IMG/VR virus record: IMGVR_UViG_3300020370_000032
Coordinates: 1-21,681 of that record
Strand: one strand, 5' to 3'
Length of the DNA stretch: 21,681 nt
From: a virus
The translations under genes were made by a program, and so were the position numbers. The notes beneath the pieces are model-generated. The model was given only the letters and a program-made list of their open reading frames with translations. It was not told the DNA's origin and searched no databases. This document shows positions 3,651 to 20,072 of this stretch, piece after piece. Numbering within the stretch: position 1 is the first letter of the stretch; each line of letters starts with the position of its first letter.

Positions 3651-4421
3651 ATGGCACGTCCCAAGTCGGTTACGCAAATTAAAAATACGTTGCTTAGTCC
3701 ATCTTTAACCTCTCACTTTGAGGTAGAGATACCTGTCCCAACTAATCTTAGATCGATATTGGGATCTAATCAGGAGCAACTAAATTTACAATGTTCAGAA
3801 GCAAGTCTTCCTGGTTCTTCTCTTGCAACCAGTGAGATCAATAATAGTTTTCATGGTGTTACTGAAAGACATGCATACAGAAGAATATATGATGATAGAA
3901 TTGATTTAACTTTTTATGTAGATGCTGATAACTATACTCCTATCAGATTCTTTGAGAATTGGATATCATATATTGTAGGTGAAACTGATAGAGATGATAT
4001 GATGAATACGAATTACTATTATAGAAGTCAATATCCAGATGAGTATTGTGCTAATCAAGGATTGAAAGTTAGAAAGTTTGAAAGAGATTATGGTAGATCT
4101 ATAGAGTATGAATTTGTTAGAGCATATCCTTTAGCAATAACATCAATGCCTGTTACCTATGAAGGATCAAGTTTATTAACATGTAATGTATCAATGACAT
4201 ATATTAGGTATATTGCAAGACCCATACACAGTTCTCCTATTACTGTACCAACACCAGGTCAACAAGCAGGGTTTAATGTTTCAGGAATACTTGGTAATGC
4301 AGCAGCTAGTTTAGTTGATAGTGTTGTTGATAGATCAACTGGTAGTGATACTCTTGGTAATATTGCAGGGGCAGTAGCAGGACAATTTGTATCGAATACA
4401 TTTGCTAACGAAGGTCTATAA
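3651..4421 (+). CDS. 54: Tail tube initiator gp54-like protein
   Basis: This 256-aa protein has the look of the T4 gp19/gp48/gp54 tail-tube fold: a hydrophobic strand at the start (SHFEVEIPVP), LQCSEASLPGSSLAT, then RIYDDRIDLTFYVDADNY followed by a helix (IRFFENWISYIVG), and a late strand LLTCNVSMTYIRYIARP. In gp19 relatives the 'C-x-A-x-x-LPG' strand and the 'W-D-x-x-V-x-F-Y-x-D' strand occupy the same order. Position between gp4/gp48 and gp26 favours gp54, which starts the tail tube on the hub; another tube-like baseplate protein is the alternative. The last 60 residues are Gly/Ala/Ser/Val-rich and probably flexible. There is no clear Shine-Dalgarno sequence (AAGGT lies 16 bases upstream). 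Arg codons are almost all AGA. Confidence 0.68.
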   Translation: MARPKSVTQIKNTLLSPSLTSHFEVEIPVPTNLRSILGSNQEQLNLQCSEASLPGSSLATSEINNSFHGVTERHAYRRIYDDRIDLTFYVDADNYTPIRFFENWISYIVGETDRDDMMNTNYYYRSQYPDEYCANQGLKVRKFERDYGRSIEYEFVRAYPLAITSMPVTYEGSSLLTCNVSMTYIRYIARPIHSSPITVPTPGQQAGFNVSGILGNAAASLVDSVVDRSTGSDTLGNIAGAVAGQFVSNTFANEGL

Positions 4422-4451: not shown

Positions 4452-5171
4452 ATGCCTTTACCAAAAATTGCGACTCCGACGTATGAGTTGGAGTTACCTT
4501 CGTCAGGTGAGACTATTAGTTATAGACCTTTCCTTGTAAAAGAAGAAAAGGTTTTAGTGATTGCCTTAGAAAGCGAAGATAATAAACAGATCACAAATGC
4601 TATTAAAGCAGTATTGAAAAGTTGTGTTTTGTCAAAGGGGATTAAAGTAGAAAAACTTCCTACTTTTGATATTGAATTTCTATTCCTCAACATCAGAGGT
4701 AAATCTGTTGGAGAAGAATTAGAAGTTAATGTTATCTGTCCTGATGATGAGAAAACTCAAGTTCCTGTTTTAATTGACTTGGATGATATTCAAGTTCAGA
4801 AGTATGATGATCATGAGAACCAGATTAAAATTGATGATAGTATTATGATGGAGATGACTTATCCTTCTCTGGATCAGTTCATTAAAAATAATTTTGACTT
4901 TGATGAAAAGAATGCAATGACACAATCATTTGAATTGATTGCTAGTTGTATTGATAAAATTTACACAGAAGATGAGGTCTGGGCATCTGCTGATTGTACT
5001 AAGAAAGAAATGAATGAGTTTCTTGAATCGATGAACTCAACTCAGTTTAAAGCAATTGAGAAGTTCTTTGAGACTATGCCTAAACTATCTCATACTATTG
5101 AAGTAACTAATCCTAAGACTAAGAAAAAAAGTGAAGTAGTACTTGAGGGATTAGCGTCTTTTTTCGGGTAG
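4452..5171 (+). CDS. 26: Baseplate hub assembly protein gp26 (candidate tail assembly chaperone)
   Basis: This 239-aa protein has the gp26 pattern of T4-like phages: MPLPKIATPTYELELPSSGE, TISYRPFLVKEEKVLVIALE (the most conserved part), a segment of helices around VLKSCVLSKGIKVEKLPTFD, IEFLFLNIRGKSVGEELEV with a short Cys-containing strand (VICPDDEK), and a helical C-terminal half. In T4, gp26 acts in hub assembly; here it directly precedes tape-measure-like genes, the usual place for tail assembly chaperones. An AGGA five bases before the ATG and a late promoter at 4417-4424 support this start. Its last sense codons, TCT TTT TTC GGG, contain a T TTT TTC heptamer that could send a share of ribosomes into the -1 frame, giving a 300-aa fusion with the next short frame instead of stopping at TAG (5169-5171). 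Confidence 0.82.
   Translation: MPLPKIATPTYELELPSSGETISYRPFLVKEEKVLVIALESEDNKQITNAIKAVLKSCVLSKGIKVEKLPTFDIEFLFLNIRGKSVGEELEVNVICPDDEKTQVPVLIDLDDIQVQKYDDHENQIKIDDSIMMEMTYPSLDQFIKNNFDFDEKNAMTQSFELIASCIDKIYTEDEVWASADCTKKEMNEFLESMNSTQFKAIEKFFETMPKLSHTIEVTNPKTKKKSEVVLEGLASFFG
5145..5171 (+). other. Candidate programmed -1 frameshift site at the end of gene 26
   Basis: The zero frame reads TCT TTT TTC GGG TAG, so 5159-5165 is T TTT TTC in the correct X-XXY-YYZ phase. After a -1 slip, reading continues CGG GTA GCA ATG from 5165 straight into the short frame that ends at 5353. The -1 frame is closed just upstream by TGA at 5144-5146 and the zero frame by TAG at 5169-5171, so the shift must happen in this short interval, where the heptamer lies. 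GAGGGA at 5145-5150 lies eight bases upstream, resembling the Shine-Dalgarno stimulator of E. coli dnaX. A hairpin at 5188-5206 (7 bp, one G-U) is possible but farther downstream than usual. No other slippery heptamer fits. Confidence 0.65.
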
Positions 5172-5173
5172 CA

Positions 5174-5353
5174 ATGCTGCATATGACTCTGGAGAATTAC
5201 TTCAGACTTAATTTTGCTTTGATGCAGTACCATAAATATAGCTTGACAGAGATTGAGAATATGATGCCTTGGGAACGAGACATCTATGTGGGTCTTCTCC
5301 AACAACATCTTGAGGAAGAAGAACTAAAACAAAAGCAAAAACAAAATGCCTAA
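5174..5353 (+). CDS. Short chaperone-extension-like frame behind gene 26 (59 aa alone, or fused to gp26 by -1 shift)
   Basis: From the ATG at 5174 the frame encodes 59 residues beginning MLHMTLENYFRLNFALMQYH, then YSLTEIENMMPWERDIYVGL and an acidic-to-basic helical end (HLEEEELKQKQKQNA). The 'SLTEIENMxPWERDIY' piece resembles the extensions that follow the frameshift in tail assembly chaperone pairs of other phages. The place after gene 26 is that of T4 gene 51, but similarity to gp51 was not tested. The ATG lies two bases after the gene 26 stop and has no proper ribosome site, so the product is either made by re-initiation or, as I prefer, as the C-terminal 62 residues of a 300-aa gp26 fusion (adding R-V-A before the Met). 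Its end overlaps the start of the next gene by eight bases. Confidence 0.7.
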   Translation: MLHMTLENYFRLNFALMQYHKYSLTEIENMMPWERDIYVGLLQQHLEEEELKQKQKQNA

Positions 5354-7637
5354 AGGAAAACCAAACATGTATGCAGGAGGAGGCTTAATAAAGTCTCTGA
5401 GGAGTGCTCATGATCCTCATTTTAAATTAGAGGGTAGAGTTGGTGGGCTTGAAAAAGGATTGGTTATAGAAGTTGCTCAGTTACATAAGACATTAAGTAA
5501 GTCCTTTGCAATGCAGAGGAAGACTTTAGTACGAGTACTTGGTCTTGAGAAAAAAGTTGCTGAGTTAGAAGCACAGAAGGCACAAATAGCGGATGTAGTA
5601 GATGATATAATAGATGACGGAATAGATATAGATGATGAAGTACCTATACCTCAAGAAGTAGAAGGAGAACGACCAGCAGAAGGAGAAGTAGGTGGTGATG
5701 ATAAACCATCTAGTGGAGTAAGTACTTTAATTGATCCACCAAAAAGAATTAAGGTAAAAAGAAAAAAAATAAAGGCAGCAGATATAAAGAAAGGAACTGC
5801 ATTAGATAAGGACTTTGGTTCAAGAGTAATGGGTCAGGATGAGAAGGGAGAATATCTAAGTAAGGGAGAAAGAATAGCAAGATTTAAAGGAGAGAAATTT
5901 GATCCTGAAAGTGTTAAACCAGTTGAAGGAGATGGTGATTCTCAAAAGGATGCTCAAAACTCTAATCCATTTGCAGGTGTTGGTAGTACTTTAACAACTA
6001 TTGCAGATACTGTAGACTCGATCTATAAAACTCTACAAGATCAGTTTAAGTTGCAGGAGGATGCAAGTGATGATGCTAGAGTAAAGGGAGAAGAGGAAGA
6101 TGTAAAAGCAGCAGAGAAGGATTTAGAAAAGAAAGGTGGTCTTGGTCTTGGTAAAGGAATAAAAGATACTGCAGCGAAAGTCTTTAAACCTTTTATGAGT
6201 ATTTGGGATAGGTTTGTACAGTTCTTTGTTGCGATTGTAGCAGGTAAAACTATAATGAAAGCATTGGATTGGTTTGGTAATCCAGAGAATGCTTCTAAGG
6301 TTTCATCTATATTCAGATTCATAAAGGACTGGTGGCCAGTATTACTTGGTAGTCTTATGTGGTTCTTGCCAGGATTATTAGGTCCCGCAGGAATGGTAGC
6401 AGGTACTATTGTTTTGTTGATGTGGGGTGTTCCTAAGATACTTGATGCAGTTAAATTTGTGATGGGATTGCCAGGTCAGATTATGGACTGGATAACTGGG
6501 AAGGGAAATAAAGATCTTGAGAAAGTAGAGGAAGAAGCGGTTGCTGATGTAACAAAAGAAACAGGAGATGAATCACCTCCTATAGATCCGAAGGAGATTA
6601 TTCCAGATAAAGAACCAAAAGGATTTAATAAAGGTGGAGAAGTTCCTGGAGAAGGTAATAAGGATACTGTTCCTGCCATGCTTACTCCTGGTGAGTTTGT
6701 TATGACAAAGGGTGCTGTAAGTAAGTTTGGTGTTGATACTTTAGAAGGTATGAATGCTGCAGCAGGTGGAACTAACAAACCAAAGAAGGGTCGTCAATTC
6801 AATGAAGGTGGTGAGGCAAAAGCAGGTCAAGAATGGGGTGAGAATACGCAAGACTTGCAGAAATTAGTTGCTCCAGAACTTATGAAGTTTATGGAAACGC
6901 AAAATGCAGCAGTGGATGCAAATCCTGATGCTTATGGTGGTGTAAAATTGAAGATGGATAGGGATGGGAAGATGCCAAACTTTGGTGAGTTTATTATGAA
7001 CCAAGGTGAGGTTGCTTTTAATCAAGGACTTGAAATGCTTCAGACTAATGAGTCAGTAGAACCAGAAGTTAGAGAGGCACTTATTAAAAAGGCACTTTAT
7101 ATTAGGAGTGAGACATTAGATAATCCCAATTTTAAAGGAGATATTGCATTTGATATTAACAAAGATATTCCAGGTACAGCAGCAAATAGATTGTATATTA
7201 AAGCTCAGAACTCTCCTAAGAATGCAGCGATAATGGCAGGAATAGATCCAGCAGAGGTTGCAAGACTTTGGAATAGAAGGCAAATGAATAAGGGTGGTCT
7301 GGTTCAACATCTTAATGAAGGTGGTTTAGTTCAGAATATGTTTGGTGGTGCTAAGACTATGTTTAATATGCTACCACAAGTTAAAGCAGCGAAGTTTGTA
7401 GGTGGTAAAGCAAAGGATATGTTCAGTAGAGGTAAAGAGTTTGTTAGTAATGCATTTGATAAGTCTGTAAATATTCCTCCTCCTACATCTAATGATCAGA
7501 AGGTAACTATTATTCAGCAGACTAATACATCTTCTAAAGAACCATCTGAGTTGGGTGGATCAACTATTCCTGCTTTCCCTGTTGTTTATCCTGCAATGAA
7601 GAAGAATAAGCAGAAACTATTGGGGATTAGTGTATAA
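5346..7637 (+). CDS. Large tape-measure-like structural protein 1
   Basis: This 763-aa protein is a candidate tail tape measure or inner tail protein. Residues about 34-92 form a likely coiled coil (VAQLHKTLSKSF to LEKKVAELEAQ), followed by a very acidic stretch and a Lys-rich one (RIKVKRKKIK). Residues 285-310 (SIWDRFVQFFVAIVAGKT...) and about 329-370 (DWWPVLLGSLMWFLPGLLG...) are hydrophobic and could cross a membrane. Then come Gly-rich modules typical of tape measure and tail proteins: FNKGGEVPGEGNKDTVPAML (427-446) followed by TPGEFVMTKGAV, a second GEFIMNQGEV (547), and NKGGLVQHLNEGGLVQ (from about 648). Position directly behind gp26 and its frameshift partner is where a tape measure gene is expected. 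There is no own ribosome site; it overlaps the preceding frame by eight bases. T4 gp29 is the functional counterpart I would suspect, without visible sequence proof. Confidence 0.62.
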   Translation: MPKGKPNMYAGGGLIKSLRSAHDPHFKLEGRVGGLEKGLVIEVAQLHKTLSKSFAMQRKTLVRVLGLEKKVAELEAQKAQIADVVDDIIDDGIDIDDEVPIPQEVEGERPAEGEVGGDDKPSSGVSTLIDPPKRIKVKRKKIKAADIKKGTALDKDFGSRVMGQDEKGEYLSKGERIARFKGEKFDPESVKPVEGDGDSQKDAQNSNPFAGVGSTLTTIADTVDSIYKTLQDQFKLQEDASDDARVKGEEEDVKAAEKDLEKKGGLGLGKGIKDTAAKVFKPFMSIWDRFVQFFVAIVAGKTIMKALDWFGNPENASKVSSIFRFIKDWWPVLLGSLMWFLPGLLGPAGMVAGTIVLLMWGVPKILDAVKFVMGLPGQIMDWITGKGNKDLEKVEEEAVADVTKETGDESPPIDPKEIIPDKEPKGFNKGGEVPGEGNKDTVPAMLTPGEFVMTKGAVSKFGVDTLEGMNAAAGGTNKPKKGRQFNEGGEAKAGQEWGENTQDLQKLVAPELMKFMETQNAAVDANPDAYGGVKLKMDRDGKMPNFGEFIMNQGEVAFNQGLEMLQTNESVEPEVREALIKKALYIRSETLDNPNFKGDIAFDINKDIPGTAANRLYIKAQNSPKNAAIMAGIDPAEVARLWNRRQMNKGGLVQHLNEGGLVQNMFGGAKTMFNMLPQVKAAKFVGGKAKDMFSRGKEFVSNAFDKSVNIPPPTSNDQKVTIIQQTNTSSKEPSELGGSTIPAFPVVYPAMKKNKQKLLGISV

Positions 7638-9667: not shown

Positions 9668-11038
9668 ATGAGCGACAAGATACTTACTGCAAGTGCAGAA
9701 GCAGCTACAATTAAATCCGTTAAAATCTTTTCAAATCTTGGTGGAAATAGGTCAGTAGATATTTCTGCTGGTATTACTTTGCTAATGTACTTTGAGAGTA
9801 TATTAGAGGATACTCTTAGAGCGACTATACGGTTTGTTGATTCAGGAGATTCTGCTAAGAGTGATGATGGTGGTAATAAAACAGTAAGAGAAGGTTTGCC
9901 TCTTGTAGGACAGGAAAGAGTTGAGATAGAATTTGAAGATAATAATGAAGTTGCTATAGGTGATTCTCCTAAACTTACTTTGTATGTTAATAAGATAACT
10001 CCAATAGACAGTGATACAAAGACTGAATTGATTCAGTTAGAGTTAGTATCAAAAGAGTTTATATTCAATGAAAAGATAAGAGTTAATACTAGGTTTGATG
10101 GTAAAATATCTGATCATATAGAAACTATACTTACTGATCAAACTTATCTTAGAAGTGAAAAGGAGTTGCACATAGAGGATACTGAGAATGAATTTAATTT
10201 CAATGGACATAATAAAAAACCATTCTATATGTTGAATGCATTATCTAAGAAGTCTGTGCCAGTAGGAAAAGGTGGTACGGCAGCAGGATTCTTTTTTTAT
10301 GAAACTTCTAATGGATTTAATTTTAAATCACTAGATGCTTTATTAGATCCTTCTAAGAATCCAAAAAAGAAATCTATCATTTATAATGAGACACCTGAAT
10401 CCAAAGGTCAGAATCTTCCTGAAGGATATGATATGAAGGCATTGGAATATGAATTAGATAATCGTGTTGATGTTCAGGAGAAATTGAGACTTGGTGCTTA
10501 TAGTAGTAAGATGATTTTATTTGATCCTTTTAATTGTTATTATGAAGTTCTTACTGATTCAGTAATAGAAAGTGGTGATGGAAAAGATACTGAACAATCT
10601 GCAGGTAAAGAATTACCTGTGTTGAATTCAGAATTTGATACTATCAATGATGGTGAGAATAAAGAGTTTAGTCGTACTACATACTTCCTAGTTGATCATG
10701 GATCATTACCTTCTGGAGATACATCTCAGCAAATTGATGATGCAGAGAAGCAGAATTTTGAGTATTTTAAAATAGCAAATCAATCTATTAGACGTTATAA
10801 TCAATTTTATGCATCAAAAGTCACGATTACCTTACCTGGAGACTTTTCATTACACGTAGGAGATGCTATATTTGTAGATGCACCTGGACTTACCGCAGAG
10901 AAAACTGGAGAAAACGACCAGCAAGCTGGTGGGATATATATTATAGCGGATTTATGCCACTATATGACTCCAAAAAATACCTATACTAAATTAAATTTGG
11001 TTAGGGATTCCTTTGGTAGAAAAGGTACAGCAAGCTAA
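9668..11038 (+). CDS. 27: Baseplate hub protein, gp27-like
   Basis: This 456-aa protein looks like the trimeric hub protein of contractile tails (T4 gp27, Mu gp44 type), which forms the ring between tail tube and spike. Support comes from beta-rich N-terminal segments (DISAGITLLMYFESILEDTL, then ATIRFVDSG), KLTLYVNKITPID, IQLELVSKEFIFNEKIRVNT, and FFFYETSNGFNFKSLDALL (a mid-protein block that occurs in many hub proteins). A C-terminal barrel-like stretch follows (SKVTITLPGDFSLHVGDAIF, then GGIYIIADLCHYMTPKNTYT). The 'GDF-LHVGD-I-VDAPG' block is typical for the barrels of such hubs. It precedes the gp5-like gene as expected for hub partners. It starts 24 bases after the previous stop; a TTAAATA lies at that stop, which only partly fits a late promoter. 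Confidence 0.68.
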   Translation: MSDKILTASAEAATIKSVKIFSNLGGNRSVDISAGITLLMYFESILEDTLRATIRFVDSGDSAKSDDGGNKTVREGLPLVGQERVEIEFEDNNEVAIGDSPKLTLYVNKITPIDSDTKTELIQLELVSKEFIFNEKIRVNTRFDGKISDHIETILTDQTYLRSEKELHIEDTENEFNFNGHNKKPFYMLNALSKKSVPVGKGGTAAGFFFYETSNGFNFKSLDALLDPSKNPKKKSIIYNETPESKGQNLPEGYDMKALEYELDNRVDVQEKLRLGAYSSKMILFDPFNCYYEVLTDSVIESGDGKDTEQSAGKELPVLNSEFDTINDGENKEFSRTTYFLVDHGSLPSGDTSQQIDDAEKQNFEYFKIANQSIRRYNQFYASKVTITLPGDFSLHVGDAIFVDAPGLTAEKTGENDQQAGGIYIIADLCHYMTPKNTYTKLNLVRDSFGRKGTAS

Positions 11039-11042
11039 TCTT

Positions 11043-11047
11043 AGGAG
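11043..11047 (+). promoter_or_regulatory. Ribosome binding site that decides the start of the His-rich gene
   Basis: AGGAG lies seven bases before the ATG at 11055, an ideal distance. The frame is open further upstream to an ATG at 11013, but that start has no such site and lies inside the end of the hub gene, so 11055 is chosen. Confidence 0.75.
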
Positions 11048-11054
11048 AAAACCT

Positions 11055-11318
11055 ATGACTATTAAACACAACTTAGATCACGAAGTTTATCTTGATCCTA
11101 AAGATGGTAAAGAGCATACTAATCATGGTATGCATGAATATACAAAAGAAGATTTAGAAAATGTTCATGCTGATTATGAGGTGTATCATAAGGATGATAA
11201 AGTAGATGCGAACGAAGGTAAGATCAATGATTATCATACACGTCATGAAGATAGTCATCTAGAAGTGTATTGTGACAATCATCCAGATGCAGACGAATGT
11301 AAGGTATACGACGATTAA
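11055..11318 (+). CDS. Small His/Asp-rich acidic protein with C-terminal Cys pair
   Basis: I do not recognise a named family. The 87-aa product has 11 histidines, many Asp and Glu, and two cysteines in the ending YCDNHPDADECKVYDD. I recall similar C-terminal endings (C...P...C-x-V-Y-D-D) in cyanophage proteins, but did not check this. The composition would suit metal binding or a flexible charged linker; there is no membrane segment or signal peptide. The gene sits between the two hub genes, four bases before the gp5-like start (stop TAA at 11316-11318, next ATG at 11322), and has one of the best ribosome sites of the block, so it is probably made in quantity with them. A role at the hub or spike is inference from position. 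Confidence 0.75.
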   Translation: MTIKHNLDHEVYLDPKDGKEHTNHGMHEYTKEDLENVHADYEVYHKDDKVDANEGKINDYHTRHEDSHLEVYCDNHPDADECKVYDD

Positions 11319-13937: not shown

Positions 13938-16900
13938 ATGGCAATTGCTGCAACCCAGTTTAATATATTTGGATCTGTTACTCAGAAAGAGATATCTGTT
14001 GGATATATTTCGAGTATTAGAGGATATGTTCCTAGCATTTCTTTATGCGAAGCAAATGACCATGAGAAAGAGTATCCAAATACTGCATTCATTCTTAAGA
14101 ATAGGGATAAGATATCCTATATTGGTATAGATGAAGTTAATAAGTTAGTACCAGATGATATAGTACCTTTAGATAATACTGATGTAAGTTGTGGTTCTAT
14201 TGATTTGGATCATAAATGTAGTAGCACTCCTGAAGTATACTTCTATGGTGGTGGTGGAGTAGGTGCTTTTGCTAATCCAGTAGTTGGAACTGATGGTGGA
14301 TTACTTACATTAGATATTACAAATCCTGGTTTTGGGTATCAGTATCCACCTAAAGTAGAAGTAAAGGATGAGTGTGGTATTGCTAAAGGTGCTGTAGTTC
14401 GTGTACAGGTATCAGATGGTGATAATTGTGTAGAGACTTGGAAATATTATAAGGATCAGATGGATGAGTCTGGACCAGATATATGTGCTGATACTAGTAT
14501 ACCTTATGGTAGAGTTTGGGGTGTAAATGGTCAGGATACTGGAGAGTGGGATCCTACAAAGTATACTAAGTATGCAGCAGATCCTTTAATGGATGAGGTT
14601 GATAAGTATCTTGAGAGTCTTAAGAATTTATCAAATCCTTGGTGGACTACGAGGCAGAATTTAAATAAACAAAATATTACTTCGTCTAAGAATGGAGAAG
14701 TAACCACAGTAGGATATGCTGTTAGTGTTACTGAATGGTCAGACTTTTTAAATCTATATGGTATTTCACCAGTACCCCCATCAGATGAACCTGGATCTGC
14801 ACATGGTGGTGAGACTTTTGATTTTGAATGGGATATAGAATTTCCTTGGGGTGGTGAGTATGTCTTTAGAGGTTTGTATGCTGGTGCTGTAGGTTTTGGC
14901 GATTTATATATTGAGGATCAAAAGGTAGCATCTTTAGGTAATAAAGACGGTCTAACAGATCCAATCAAATATGAAGTTGGTATTGCTACAACAAAAAAAG
15001 TAGCTTTTAAACTTCATAATGGAGCAACTACAAAGAAAGCACCAATACAACCAAGTAGAGAACCAATAGTTAGAAAAGCAGGTGGAAAGTTTATCAAGGA
15101 AGGTAAAAATTATTTTTATAAAGTATCTGGAAATGATCTTGTTGATATAGATTTTGATTTTGCTTGGGATAAGAGTCTTGGATTACCTGAAGAAGAAAAG
15201 GAAAAGATAGAGACAAAGAAAACAGTACAGTTTATTACCAGTCATCAATCACCTCGTGATAGTACATTTGAGATAAGCGAATTAGGAATTAGATCTCATA
15301 AGAATGGTGGTAAAAATAAACCTAAAGTTTTTAATACCTTTGCTAAACAAATTGAGATTGGAAAAGAGTATCAAATAACTGTTAAGTGTAATGCATCAGA
15401 TGACTATGGTGTTAAGTTAAGAGTTAATAAGGATGATCAGGGAAGAACTCGTCTTCAAATGGAGGATTATAAGGACTATAACTGGAAAGATTTTGAGGTT
15501 TCTATAACTGATGGTGAGTTCTATGATCTTGTAGATGGAAACACATCAAATAGAACTGCGACTTGTAAATTTAGGATCAAGAAACCTGTAACACCTCCCA
15601 CACCTAAAGAAAGACCTGCTATCAGTAAACTTACCATACAGACTGAGACAGAACCTTTAGTATTTGAAGTTCCTAAGACTGATTTTCAACCAGGAAATGA
15701 TGATGGGAATAAAAAAAATACTATTACTTATAATGGATTAAAAGTACCAGGAGATAAACGTTATACAACTTCTAGAAGACTTGCGTTTGACGACAACTCT
15801 GGAAATGGATTTGATGAGAATGCTACTTTTAATATTGATTATGTTACTGGAGGAACAGCAGAGTTTAATCAAGATTGTAATTCTATTGATGTTCAGGGTA
15901 CTAATGTACAGGTTAGTCTAACATATGTTTGGGCTGATAATCCTAGAAGAAGTGGTAAGGCATTAGAATCAATTAGGATTGGTAATACCACTTGGACACA
16001 AACCAATAGCAGTACGGGTAGAGAAACTCATGTAATAGTTTTAAGTGGTGGTAGTAGTCTTGCAGATACTCTAGGTAAAGGTGGTAAAGATTATCAGCAG
16101 AAAGGTATTATTAGTAAGAAAGGTAATTTTAAGAATGGTAGAAAGTATAGAGTAACATTTGATAGGCAGTCATATACTAAGGTTCCTAGTATTGGTGATA
16201 CAGGTGCTACTCCAGAGACAGAAGACCAGAAGATTGATTTCTTTGATAGAGGTGTAAGGATAGGTAATACATTACAGATTGCTACTCCTCAGAATGCATC
16301 CTTTGCTGCAAGGACTGCATATCAATTGTCTGAAAATGAAAGTAGAATAGTTTATCCTGCAGATACAACAACTACAGAGCAAACAATATTTAATACTCTA
16401 CAATATATTGACAAGGCAGATAGGAGACTATGGAAATCGAAAAATAAGAGAGGACTCTTAGCAAAGTATGGTGTTGCTCCTTTTGATACTGCACTATCAC
16501 TTCCAAACATGCCTTATGCAGGGGATCATACAATTGTGTGGACAAACATTACTTTCCCTGTTAGTACTAACTATGACATACATGTTCATGTTGATGATGA
16601 TGTACGGATACAAATAGGTGATCAGGTTGATTTCTTCCAAGATGGATTTGTGGGTAATAACAATAAAGCAACAGGAGAGGTTACTCATACGTTCTTTATA
16701 AAAGCTGGAACATATACTATTACTGCAACTCATAGTCAAATTCCTGGTGGTAAATGGCCAACAACTAATCCGATGGCATTGGCAATTGATGTAAAAGCAA
16801 GTGTGGCATATAGAACGGTTGCAGATCCTAAGAGTTGGAATGAGAATCCAATGGCTGTTGCATTGTCGATTAAAGCACCAACCCCACCACCACCAGCAGC

Positions 16901-19900
16901 GATAGTTCCACCAATATTATCAGAGGGTGAATGTCCAGAGAGTCCTATTTGGCATACTCGTATGAAACCAGAGGGAACTCCTTGGTATCCAGTTAAGTTT
17001 GGATATTGGGATAAGTGGACAAATAAGTATGCAATATCTCCAATTCCTCCTCTTAATAGTCCTGGTACAGATGGTACAGGTAACTCAGATGGATGGGAAC
17101 AGACTTGGATTATAGATGCACCCTATGAAGGAGATTATACCTTTAAGGGTACAGTAGATAACTTTGGAAAGATTTTTGTTAATGGTAATATGGTTGCTGA
17201 AAGAAATGATGATCCTAATCTTTCCTTCAGAGATGAGGAATATAAAAGATCAAGTTTAGATGTTGTAGTAAAACCAAAAAACAGAGATGAACCATGGCCT
17301 CAAGAGACTAAATTCTATATGGCAGAAGGTAAGAACACTCTTACTGCTAAAGTTCAAAACTTTAAAAATTATGAGACTAAAAAGAAATACTTTAGTGAAA
17401 AGATTTTTAGCACTAAGGATTGGCAATCAGCAGCACCAATAAAGACTAATAAGAATAATAAACCTGCTGGTATAATGTTTACTAAGACAGGTAGTAAATA
17501 TTATCTTACTGCTTATGGTAATGATAGAATTGATGCTGATCTTGGATTTACTTGGGATGTTTTAGAGGGTGCTGCTCCACCTACAACACCTAAGAGTAAA
17601 ACAGTACAGTTCCTTACTAGTCATAGATCACCTCGTGATAGTACGATTGATATTAAAGCATTGACAATAAAATCTCATAAGAATGGTGGTAAAAATGTTC
17701 CTCATGTAACTAATAATTTTACTAGAGAAGTTGAATATGATAAAGAGTATCAAGTAACCGTTAAGTGTAATGCATCAGATGACTATGGTGTTAAATTGAG
17801 GGTTATTAAAGATGCACAAGGAAGAGAACTTCTTCAGATGGAGGACTATAAAGATTATAACTGGAAAGATTGTGAACTTACTGTAACTGGTGGTAGATTT
17901 TATGATCTTGTAAATGGAAATACATCAAATAGAACTGCTACTTGTAAATTTAAAGTAGATTCTCCTGCTGCTAAGCTTAATTTCTCTCCACCTTCTGTAA
18001 CTAAGATTACTGTACAAACAGAAACAAATCCTTTAGTCTTTGATGTACCTAAAACTGATGCTCAACCACCAAATACTGGTGGGAATACTAGTAACACTAT
18101 TAGTTACACTGGATTGAAGAGACCAGGAGATAAACGTTACACAAGTTCTAGAAGACTTGCTTTCGATGATAATTCTGATAATGGATTTGATGAGAATGCT
18201 ACTTTTAATATTGATTCTGTTACTGGAGGAACAGCAGAGTTTAATTCAAGTGGTGATTCTATTGATGTTCAGGGCACTAATGTACAAGTTAGTTTAACTT
18301 ATGTTTGGGCTGATTCACCTAGCAGAAGTGGTAAGGCATTACAGAAGATTCAAATTGGTAATACTACTTGGACACAAACCAATAGCAGTACGGGTAGAGA
18401 AACTCATATAATAACTTTAAGTGGTGGTTCTAATCCTGCAGATAATTTAGGTGAGGGTGGAGAGCAATGGAAAGTAAGTGGTACTATTAAGAAGACAGGA
18501 ACCTTTAAAGCAGGTAAAACTTATGAAGTTACTTTTGTAAAAGGATATGGTCGCAGACCAGATGGTAGTGCAATTATTAACATACCAAATCCTACTATTC
18601 TTGAGTCTGGGTGGAAAACACAAGCAGAGAAATCAATTAAACCTAATCCTAAGATGGCATTTAAGAATCCTTGGGACTATTTACAAGCAACTTCTGTTTA
18701 TCAAATGTCTTCTGCTACTGCTGAACAAGAACTTCTTGCAGACACTACAAGAAATGGTGTAACCTATAAAGGACCAGCATTATTTAATTATAGAAGTAAG
18801 ATATATGGTTCATTCATGAATGAAAATGGAATTTCTCCTGACTATCCAAAAATTGGTGGTGCTGAGTTAGTTGATTACACTTGGAGTAATGTTCATTTTC
18901 CAGTAACAGGTGAATATGAATTTACATTCCAGAATGATCATTCAGCAACTCTTTTTCTTGATGGTCAACAAATAGGAACTAATACATTTAGAGGAACTGA
19001 TAAGACTCGTCAAGATATTGGTGCTGGTAGGCATAGTATTGATATGACAGGTGAAGGTACTCCTAAAAAGATAACAGTTAATAAAGGTAAGCATACTCTT
19101 ACAGTAAAACCAACTGTATATACAGCAGAAACTGGAGGTCCAATAGGATTTATAGATGCTCTCTTCCGTAAACCATCTGAAGATTATTACAGAGGTTCAT
19201 CAGCATTTGATGCTAATCCAAGTACCTTTGCTATAGGAATAGCAAGATTGGTTGAGGATGTACCAGAACCAGGAACACCTCAATCTTCAGCAGCATCAGG
19301 AAAATCATGGTATCAAAATCCAATAGGACTTTGTGGTATAATTATTCCTCCACCATGTAAGCAAATAAAATGTGGTAAGGGTAGAATTAAAGATCCGTTA
19401 GTTGAAGATCCTGGAACTGGTTTTGATACACCCCCACCTCCTACAACAAGACCAGAAGTTGTTGTTGATCCTGGAGATGATAGACCAGTTGAATATAATG
19501 CTCTAATTGTACCTGTTAGGGTTGTTATAGATGATCCTGGTATCAACTATAAGGAACCAGATCTTCCAGGTGGAGATCCTGGTGACACTCCAGTGGTTGA
19601 TGATCCTCCTGGCAGTGGTATTGCATTGACTGCTACATACACACCTCATGGTGGTATTAGTAAGATTGATATTCTTGATCCAGGAACAGGACTTACAAGT
19701 ACTCCTAGAATTATTATACCATCTGATACTGGTGTTAATTTCCGTGGTCATTTTATATTAGATGTTGTTCGTGATCCAATTGACGCACCTGATCCTGATA
19801 AATTATTACAGGTAACAGACCTAGTTGGATTAAAACAAACTGGATATATACAAGGTCGAGCATACTATGGTTCTGTATACTATGAGAATGGTATTCCTTA

Positions 19901-20072
19901 TGCAGGAATAACTGCGAGTGCTGGTAAAGCAATTCAAGTTTATGCTACTCTACAAGAGAGTATTGATGGTGTGAGAACTACACCTCCATCAGCAATTCAG
20001 AGACAGGGTACTGATATTTCTAGCAATGATCCTAGACTTAACATACCAGGAACTCCTGATAACCTTACCTAA
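13938..20072 (+). CDS. Giant multidomain virion protein with PA14-like modules (adhesin-like)
   Basis: This 2044-aa protein is a mosaic of beta modules. Residues 1-230 include a strand repeat (ITNPGFGYQYPPKVEV, 127-142). Four PA14-like modules follow, each with a 'YGISP'-type start and a 'Y-F-x-x-x-x-D-x-x-x-x-x-I' core: about 265-360, 832-955, 1005-1142 and 1616-1770. PA14 modules often bind carbohydrate. A 314-residue domain (428-741) is repeated at 1221-1533 at high identity, so the middle consists of two long units of nearly 790 residues. Motifs of the type NPMAVALSI and NPMALAIDV recur between modules. The C-terminal 230 residues carry Pro/Asp/Gly-rich 'DPGTG' repeats (about 1823, 1865, 1912) and no cysteine-rich or enzyme motif. 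No signal peptide or membrane segment is seen. The place between hub and spike genes suggests a tail or baseplate protein that contacts the host surface. The start follows a late promoter; the ribosome site is weak. Confidence 0.72.
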   Translation: MAIAATQFNIFGSVTQKEISVGYISSIRGYVPSISLCEANDHEKEYPNTAFILKNRDKISYIGIDEVNKLVPDDIVPLDNTDVSCGSIDLDHKCSSTPEVYFYGGGGVGAFANPVVGTDGGLLTLDITNPGFGYQYPPKVEVKDECGIAKGAVVRVQVSDGDNCVETWKYYKDQMDESGPDICADTSIPYGRVWGVNGQDTGEWDPTKYTKYAADPLMDEVDKYLESLKNLSNPWWTTRQNLNKQNITSSKNGEVTTVGYAVSVTEWSDFLNLYGISPVPPSDEPGSAHGGETFDFEWDIEFPWGGEYVFRGLYAGAVGFGDLYIEDQKVASLGNKDGLTDPIKYEVGIATTKKVAFKLHNGATTKKAPIQPSREPIVRKAGGKFIKEGKNYFYKVSGNDLVDIDFDFAWDKSLGLPEEEKEKIETKKTVQFITSHQSPRDSTFEISELGIRSHKNGGKNKPKVFNTFAKQIEIGKEYQITVKCNASDDYGVKLRVNKDDQGRTRLQMEDYKDYNWKDFEVSITDGEFYDLVDGNTSNRTATCKFRIKKPVTPPTPKERPAISKLTIQTETEPLVFEVPKTDFQPGNDDGNKKNTITYNGLKVPGDKRYTTSRRLAFDDNSGNGFDENATFNIDYVTGGTAEFNQDCNSIDVQGTNVQVSLTYVWADNPRRSGKALESIRIGNTTWTQTNSSTGRETHVIVLSGGSSLADTLGKGGKDYQQKGIISKKGNFKNGRKYRVTFDRQSYTKVPSIGDTGATPETEDQKIDFFDRGVRIGNTLQIATPQNASFAARTAYQLSENESRIVYPADTTTTEQTIFNTLQYIDKADRRLWKSKNKRGLLAKYGVAPFDTALSLPNMPYAGDHTIVWTNITFPVSTNYDIHVHVDDDVRIQIGDQVDFFQDGFVGNNNKATGEVTHTFFIKAGTYTITATHSQIPGGKWPTTNPMALAIDVKASVAYRTVADPKSWNENPMAVALSIKAPTPPPPAAIVPPILSEGECPESPIWHTRMKPEGTPWYPVKFGYWDKWTNKYAISPIPPLNSPGTDGTGNSDGWEQTWIIDAPYEGDYTFKGTVDNFGKIFVNGNMVAERNDDPNLSFRDEEYKRSSLDVVVKPKNRDEPWPQETKFYMAEGKNTLTAKVQNFKNYETKKKYFSEKIFSTKDWQSAAPIKTNKNNKPAGIMFTKTGSKYYLTAYGNDRIDADLGFTWDVLEGAAPPTTPKSKTVQFLTSHRSPRDSTIDIKALTIKSHKNGGKNVPHVTNNFTREVEYDKEYQVTVKCNASDDYGVKLRVIKDAQGRELLQMEDYKDYNWKDCELTVTGGRFYDLVNGNTSNRTATCKFKVDSPAAKLNFSPPSVTKITVQTETNPLVFDVPKTDAQPPNTGGNTSNTISYTGLKRPGDKRYTSSRRLAFDDNSDNGFDENATFNIDSVTGGTAEFNSSGDSIDVQGTNVQVSLTYVWADSPSRSGKALQKIQIGNTTWTQTNSSTGRETHIITLSGGSNPADNLGEGGEQWKVSGTIKKTGTFKAGKTYEVTFVKGYGRRPDGSAIINIPNPTILESGWKTQAEKSIKPNPKMAFKNPWDYLQATSVYQMSSATAEQELLADTTRNGVTYKGPALFNYRSKIYGSFMNENGISPDYPKIGGAELVDYTWSNVHFPVTGEYEFTFQNDHSATLFLDGQQIGTNTFRGTDKTRQDIGAGRHSIDMTGEGTPKKITVNKGKHTLTVKPTVYTAETGGPIGFIDALFRKPSEDYYRGSSAFDANPSTFAIGIARLVEDVPEPGTPQSSAASGKSWYQNPIGLCGIIIPPPCKQIKCGKGRIKDPLVEDPGTGFDTPPPPTTRPEVVVDPGDDRPVEYNALIVPVRVVIDDPGINYKEPDLPGGDPGDTPVVDDPPGSGIALTATYTPHGGISKIDILDPGTGLTSTPRIIIPSDTGVNFRGHFILDVVRDPIDAPDPDKLLQVTDLVGLKQTGYIQGRAYYGSVYYENGIPYAGITASAGKAIQVYATLQESIDGVRTTPPSAIQRQGTDISSNDPRLNIPGTPDNLT
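15219..16160 (+). repeat. Intragenic direct repeat, copy 1
   Basis: This 942-bp segment of the giant gene (residues 428-741, from KTVQF to YRVTF) recurs at 17598-18536. Shared protein blocks include SPRDST, SHKNGGKN, CNASDDYGVKLRV, MEDYKDYNWKD, GNTSNRTATCKF, SRRLAFDDNS, IDVQGTNVQVSLTYVWAD and IGNTTWTQTNSSTGRETH. By eye about 70% of residues agree, and several stretches are nearly identical at base level, most clearly over WTQTNSSTGRETH. Confidence 0.9.
17598..18536 (+). repeat. Intragenic direct repeat, copy 2
   Basis: This 939-bp segment (residues 1221-1533, from KTVQF to YEVTF) is the second copy, 2379 bp downstream of the first. Both copies are followed by a similar linker (TAYQLSENES versus TSVYQMSSATA) and a PA14-like module, and both are preceded by one, so the duplicated unit is larger than the well-conserved core given here. 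Confidence 0.9.

Follow-up and report, generated by a model that had tools for sequence, protein, structure and literature searches.

The gp26 gene and the -1 frame extension that overlaps its end very probably encode a tail assembly chaperone pair of the lambda G/GT type, with the long form made by a predicted frameshift, in a T4-like (Kyanoviridae-type) phage. The DNA analysed, called the window below, is a virus record of 21,681 bases with 36% GC. It contains, in order, gp53, gp48, an end-protector-like gene, a gp4-like gene, tail tube, gp26, the small gp51, two large proteins, a tail protein, CP12 and a gp5-like gene (below the cut-off), and this gene order matches that of Synechococcus phage S-SM2. 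S-SM2 is the closest annotated relative, with a gp26 that is 80.3% identical and the same heptamer; an unannotated single-cell contig is nearer still (81.6% gp26 identity). The features of the locus are as follows.

3651..4421, + strand: upstream neighbour, tail-tube family (PF23849, E 3.6e-13; phrog_45 tail tube, E 8.9e-35)
4452..5171, + strand: gp26 (239 aa), the putative short form of the tail assembly chaperone, corresponding to lambda gpG (TAC-N) (from PF12322, phrog_150 and the fold)
5144..5146, + strand: nearest -1 frame stop upstream, TGA (from the sequence)
5145..5150, + strand: Shine-Dalgarno-like (SD-like) GAGGGA, 8 nt before the slip site, probable stimulator (from codon bias and anti-SD pairing in relatives)
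5159..5165, + strand: slippery heptamer T_TTT_TTC (from the sequence and its conservation)
5165..5353, + strand: extension in the -1 frame, comprising the 62 codons that follow the slip and the stop (from phrog_634 and phrog_150)
5169..5171, + strand: zero-frame stop TAG ending the short form (from the sequence)
5174..5176, + strand: ATG two bases 3' of the TAG, a possible independent or reinitiation start (from the sequence)
5174..5353, + strand: segment called gp51 in relatives, 59 aa, part of the -1 extension
5176..5189, + strand: position at which close relatives have a covarying 5-bp hairpin (2/5 pairs form in the window)
4452-5165 + 5165..5353, + strand: predicted long form, 300 aa (TAC-NC, lambda gpGT counterpart)
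5346..7637, + strand: downstream neighbour, tape-measure-like (from weak matches to phrog tape-measure profiles)

The last gp26 codons are GAG GGA TTA GCG TCT TTT TTC GGG TAG. In the zero frame the heptamer is divided as T TTT TTC, which is the X_XXY_YYZ phase, and three bases separate it from the gp26 stop. Beyond its last stop, at 5144-5146, the -1 frame is open up to the TAA at 5351-5353, and two-tRNA slippage gives a computed product of 238 + 62 = 300 residues. The preliminary description had placed the heptamer at 5159-5165 between the -1 stop and the zero-frame stop, with GAGGGA eight bases upstream and a fusion of 300 aa, and the sequence agrees with it in all of these, including the phase. 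Among the 5758 in-phase positions of the nine + strand genes in the window, TTTTTTN occurs in phase only once. The same genes hold 22 other in-phase heptamers of the form X_XXA_AAN or X_XXT_TTN; a heptamer in itself is therefore nothing unusual, and the argument depends on the relatives.

The locus is placed between a tail-tube-family gene and a tape-measure-like gene, as in G/GT pairs, the tape-measure match being a weak one. The start of the downstream gene overlaps the end of the -1 extension. Its best profile overall is phrog_35029 (4.6e-49), which is without a function, and the phrog tape-measure profiles cover about 40-110 of its residues, with a best E of 1.3e-6 for residues 425-473. 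The label of tape-measure-like given earlier to the genes that follow is fair but weak.

Two other genes of the window may be mentioned. The CP12 gene (11013-11318; PF02672, E 5.6e-7), for a Calvin-cycle regulator, lies amid tail genes as it does in S-SM2, and its presence fits a cyanobacterial host. The protein encoded at 13938-20072 has 2044 aa and matches PA14 and DUF1580, and long internal near-repeats can be seen by eye in its translation.

Conservation of the slip site

An alignment across relatives had been proposed as a check on the frameshift, and in it the heptamer, its phase and the open -1 frame are all conserved. An in-phase TTTTTTN was found at the end of gp26 in 182 of the 186 readable loci, which are the window, 171 IMG/VR loci and 14 named phages with 170 distinct gene sequences (P-HM1, S-CRM01 and VAP7 are each present twice). 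The 182 heptamers comprise 168 TTTTTTC, 7 TTTTTTA, 6 TTTTTTT and 1 TTTTTTG, and the loci without TTTTTTN come from three phages, VAP7 (twice), D494 and Menlow. As the sequences are related, the counts do not represent independent events; after dereplication by protein identity the motif is present in 115/118 at 90%, 34/37 at 70% and 18/21 at 50%.

Six loci (L073, L080, L100, L108, L125 and L165) were dropped from the count of 186 for a missing stop or missing 90 downstream bases, though L073 carries TTTTTTC. Three more were excluded on purpose (L081, L085 and L097), namely T4 and 44RR, which have two genes, and Listeria phage LIS04, with its +1 frame, while L195-L200 and L202 were added later and read apart from the 186. 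In the first IMG/VR scan, the window and 79 of 80 loci had TTTTTTC at a distance of exactly ten bases from the stop, and the -1 frame of these loci was open to its own stop or to the contig end; a recount gave 79 of the 79 first-scan rows with enough downstream sequence, L080 being without a stop.

Phages with TTTTTTN include Kyanoviridae (S-SM2 was read as well), Emdodecavirus, two Pootjesviridae, Stenotrophomonas phages DLP6 and Yut3, Vibrio phages D481 and V07, Pseudomonas phage Astolliot, Aeromonas phage phiWae14 and a Methylophilales phage.

Codon use and elements around the junction

Codon use was analysed in the 115 representatives with the heptamer (90% protein-identity dereplication). 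The heptamer could arise merely as a by-product, from T-rich codons and a Phe-Phe conserved at the C-terminus, with no slippage at all. The gp26 C-terminus is conserved indeed, with Phe237 nearly invariant; the GC content of the window is 36% and Phe is written TTT in 929 of 1356 cases; and T4 gp26 likewise ends in EFF plus three residues. However, the dicodon use at the junction is opposite to that of Phe-Phe elsewhere. The first junction codon is TTT in 115/115, and the second is TTC in 102, TTT in 6, TTA in 6 and TTG in 1. Outside the last six codons of the same genes, Phe-Phe (n=116) is written TTC TTT in 73 cases, TTT TTT in 32, TTC TTC in 6 and TTT TTC in only 5, and TTT TTC accounts for 4/106 of the control pair FFxTMP-like. 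In 7/115 representatives the second residue is Leu (TTA or TTG), that is, the run of T is kept while the residue changes. The base before the two junction codons is T in 115/115, when compared with 58% T-ending Ser codons elsewhere, and the codon that it closes varies (AGT, TCT, GAT, AAT, ACT, GGT, GCT). T4 and CF1, the gp26 of which has no open -1 extension, code the EFF near their end with TTC TTT. On codon use, amino-acid constraint is rejected as the origin of the heptamer, and we give the by-product explanation almost no weight. Judged from these sequences, it is the bases, not the residues, that are kept at the junction.

Upstream of the heptamer, Glu-Gly is encoded at a distance of eight bases in 102/115 representatives. 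The Glu codon at this site is GAG in 67/102, compared with 908/2699 Glu codons elsewhere, and when it is GAA, GGG follows in 16/35 versus 2/41 elsewhere. The mean anti-SD pairing energy is -6.8 at the site and -2.3 in control windows, and pairing at or below -6 is reached by 71% of the sites but by 13% of the control windows. On this evidence from relatives, the GAGGGA of the window is probably an upstream SD-like stimulator.

Downstream, 61 close relatives have a hairpin of five pairs at a distance of ten bases from the heptamer, with pairing in 84.6% of cells (78.7% in shuffles, at most 52.5% when slid). Compensatory double changes are found at all 5 pairs, for two pairs in one cell only, and the double-changed cells number 34, where shuffles give 9.8 and sliding gives no more than 9; this covariation test covered the 64 close-group representatives except L077-L079. 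The window forms two of the five pairs, and another 5-bp hairpin, at 5168-5180, is predicted for its sequence alone. The P-HM1-like relatives mostly have GC-rich hairpins of six or seven pairs, located about five bases past the heptamer. Single-sequence downstream folds fall below p 0.05 in 15/22 P-HM1-like representatives, and in 25/64, 8/18 and 2/11 of the others, the last group being the named-phage representatives; control windows in this test have a mean z of -0.31. A 70-nt fold test gave a mean z of -2.0 (39/115 representatives). No common RNA structure was returned by RNAalifold for an 85-nt stretch of the 64 relatives. One downstream structure for all relatives was rejected on this zero, the hairpins being lineage-specific. 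From the sequences, a downstream element appears supported in relatives, not in the window itself.

These flanking elements bear on another possible source of both proteins, in which RNA polymerase slips on the T run and produces mRNAs of mixed length. The six-T run is there, and a similar outcome would be expected from it. Transcriptional slippage has no need, however, for an SD-like element at a fixed spacing or for the downstream hairpin of the relatives, and six T is short for efficient slippage of this kind. We consider it highly improbable.

The extension could also be expressed separately, if ribosomes stopped at the TAG (5169-5171) and restarted at the ATG at 5174 to give a 59-aa gp51. 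This ATG is located two bases past the stop in the window, TAATG overlaps are present in VAP7, D494, D481 and V07, and gp51 is annotated as its own gene in many records. All 115 extensions are open, with 57-70 codons from the heptamer, but within their first 16 codons there is no ATG in 24/115 and none of ATG, GTG and TTG in 22/115. The residues encoded there nevertheless resemble one another. In the start-less extensions a separate gp51 cannot start by ordinary initiation, and independent gp51 initiation as a general route is rejected on these relatives. Termination-reinitiation would also leave the fixed heptamer and the fixed preceding base unexplained, and in T4 and 44RR this segment is part of one polypeptide with a gp26-type domain. 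SD pairing before the first extension ATGs is weak (mean -1.1, n 91), which is not telling because the gp26 starts score little better (mean -2.7, n 110). For the window we regard reinitiation as unlikely.

For -1 frameshifting we infer the following scheme, from the slippage itself and how often it occurs to what the stimulators do and how the products serve tail assembly. The majority of ribosomes would end at the TAG and produce the 239-aa gp26. A minority would slip back by one base with two Phe-tRNAs on TTT TTC (5160-5165), aided by pairing of the GAGGGA eight bases upstream with 16S rRNA and, in many relatives, also by a short downstream hairpin. The slipped ribosomes would then read the -1 frame and produce a gp26-gp51' fusion of 300 aa. 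By analogy with lambda, the tape measure protein may be coated by many short copies and a few long ones, whose additional C-terminal part may recruit tail tube subunits.

Relation to T4 gp26 and gp51 and to known chaperones

The window gp26 matches PF12322 over residues 9-238 (E 1.1e-75) and phrog_150 at positions 5-232 (E 5.3e-80), while the 59-aa extension segment matches phrog_634 (E 1.1e-28) and phrog_150 at positions 242-281 (E 3.7e-5). T4 gp26 matches phrog_150 at 14-235, and T4 gp51 matches it at 13-280 and matches phrog_634 as well; 44RR gp51 does likewise (the phrog scan of the long gp51 covered T4 and 44RR). The profile runs through the extension, and the long gp51 of T4 and 44RR corresponds to a gp26-type domain followed by the extension. 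The preliminary description had recast gp26 and gene 51 as one pair, and the homology of the extension to the C-terminal part of T4 gp51 supports this.

T4 is similar to the window in that its gp26 and gp51 both belong to PF12322 and gp51 carries the homologue of the extension. It differs in having them as separate genes on opposite strands, with neither the heptamer nor an open -1 extension in gene 26. When PF12322 genes were counted per whole record, T4, 44RR and CF1 had two, and 9/9 records with the one-gene layout had a single copy (S-SM2, S-PM2, P-HM1, S-CRM01, phiM19, DLP6, D481, Yut3 and Menlow); eight of these nine carry TTTTTTN, Menlow being the other. On the tree, the T4-type gp26 and gp51 group together with a support of 93/94, which is below the tree's strong-support mark, and the 44RR gp26 branch is long. 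A single duplication is likely to lie behind the T4-type gp26 and gp51, and from the profile matches T4 gp51 probably represents the long form, encoded by a separate gene. The available text of PMC3004832 counts T4 gp26 and gp51 among the hub assembly chaperones, with gp51 required, yet absent from the particle; gp26 is placed in the hub by genetic studies, unlike a pure chaperone.

The fold of gp26 was examined with an AlphaFold2 model from a 46-row alignment (mean pLDDT 86.7). The best PDB match is the HK97 tail assembly chaperone 2ob9 (Z 7.8, rmsd 4.1, 84 residues), and the resemblance spans about residues 1-96 of gp26 only. The next matches are 3fgx (Z 7.7) and 3klu YqbN (Z 7.0), both of which we take to be chaperone relatives, after which the scores drop to 4.3. 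With Z under 8, the shared shape may be a common arrangement. Foldseek alone also ranked 2ob9 first, with a weak E of 0.72. Among predicted viral structures, the strong matches are other baseplate hub proteins of the PF12322 family. The gp26 profile searched against sequences of solved structures gave five matches of E 0.0011 or worse, with no chaperone among them (designed-looking proteins and a putative lipoprotein). As modelled, the short form resembles tail assembly chaperones in its fold. The lambda G/GT reading proposed earlier is thus supported by the conservation, the T4 gp51 homology and this HK97-chaperone-like fold.

The slip site of lambda is G_GGA_AAG, and it differs from the TTTTTTC of the window; a further difference from lambda is the homology of the window to T4 gp26/gp51 in a T4-like phage. 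In its general plan the window is like lambda gpG/gpGT (TAC-N/TAC-NC) as outlined in the available part of PMC5009743: a short chaperone with a rare -1 extension, encoded between the tail tube and tape measure genes, with the slip at the end of the short frame. The same source (Atkins et al. 2016), in the part available, describes G-T frameshifting as a conserved feature of the long-tailed phages, 'except T4'. The chaperone genes of T4-like phages were identified by Vladimirov, Gautam and Davidson (2022, Virology 566:9-15), as cited in PMC10885494 and PMC12846349. According to these citing papers, some T4-like phages have a short and a longer fused gene instead of a frameshift (PMC10885494, PRFect), and the TAC-N genes of T4-like phages contain poly-T slip sites (PMC12846349, the Adele paper). 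The title of the 2022 paper stresses a mechanism other than frameshifting, unlike the window. Vandenendeviridae and Andersonviridae are also similar to the window in what is available of PMC12846349, with a predicted -1 frameshift ending TAC-N and a conserved open -1 frame; they differ in their GTTTTT motif and phage lineage. The preliminary description knew of no publication on this gene pair, and here it has to be corrected, as this idea had been published before for phages of the T4-like kind (Vladimirov et al. 2022, as cited). For the cyanophage junction itself, no description was found in the titles and abstract openings returned by literature searches. The frameshifted T4-like chaperone is, in these partly available sources, already known as a kind, of which the window is another member.

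Divergent lineages and significance

Relatives that keep both frames without a slippery site had been named in advance as evidence against the frameshift. Such heptamer-less relatives exist (Menlow, VAP7, D494 and others), and they weaken the universality of the slip site, not the case of the window. An open -1 extension without X_XXY_YYZ is found in Menlow, GEC_vB_N6, DP10.3, KNP4, VAP7 and D494, six phages that belong to Ackermannviridae or are near them and were read singly (Ackermannviridae-type gp26 ends compared: L087, L088, L095, L195, L196 and L200). Their junctions are att ttc, gtt ttc, gtt ttt or ctt ttc, that is, N_NTT_TTY, which resembles the T7 gene 10 slip site; the TAATG overlap of VAP7 and D494 also permits reinitiation. 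Scans of viral contigs with the gp26 of Vibrio D481 and Agrobacterium Atu_ph04 gave no relatives, and a scan with VAP7 gp26 gave only its own genome. The distant lineages therefore rest on single named phages.

In Listeria phage LIS04 (L097, 2471-3199), a gp26 homologue lies directly before the tape measure gene, and an extension-like segment is in the +1, not the -1, frame.

To a wider picture, taken as a whole, we give an even chance. T4-like phages would have one chaperone pair, built from homologous parts, with at least three ways of production: the TTTTTTN -1 slip, in the window and most lineages seen; the N_NTT_TTY junction of Ackermannviridae and phages like them, which keeps the open -1 frame and would act by a slip of the T7 gene 10 kind or by stop-start coupling; and, in the T4/44RR lineage, a gene duplication that gave a short gp26 and a long gp51 as separate genes. 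In the same picture the frameshift lineages would have swapped their downstream hairpins with the slip site held fixed, and T4 would be derived.

Among phage records, 708 contain relatives of gp26 and 599 contain the gp51 segment. In several cyanophage genomes, for example S-CAM1, S-CAM7 and ACG-2014b/d/e/j, this segment lies under no annotated feature. The cyanophage 'gp51', often annotated as a separate gene, is better identified as the C-terminal part of a frameshifted chaperone, which fits the published view, as cited in the sources partly available, of two genes in some T4-like phages. Hundreds of gp26/gp51 annotations could be joined, and abundant marine phages would be tied to the tail-length logic of lambda.
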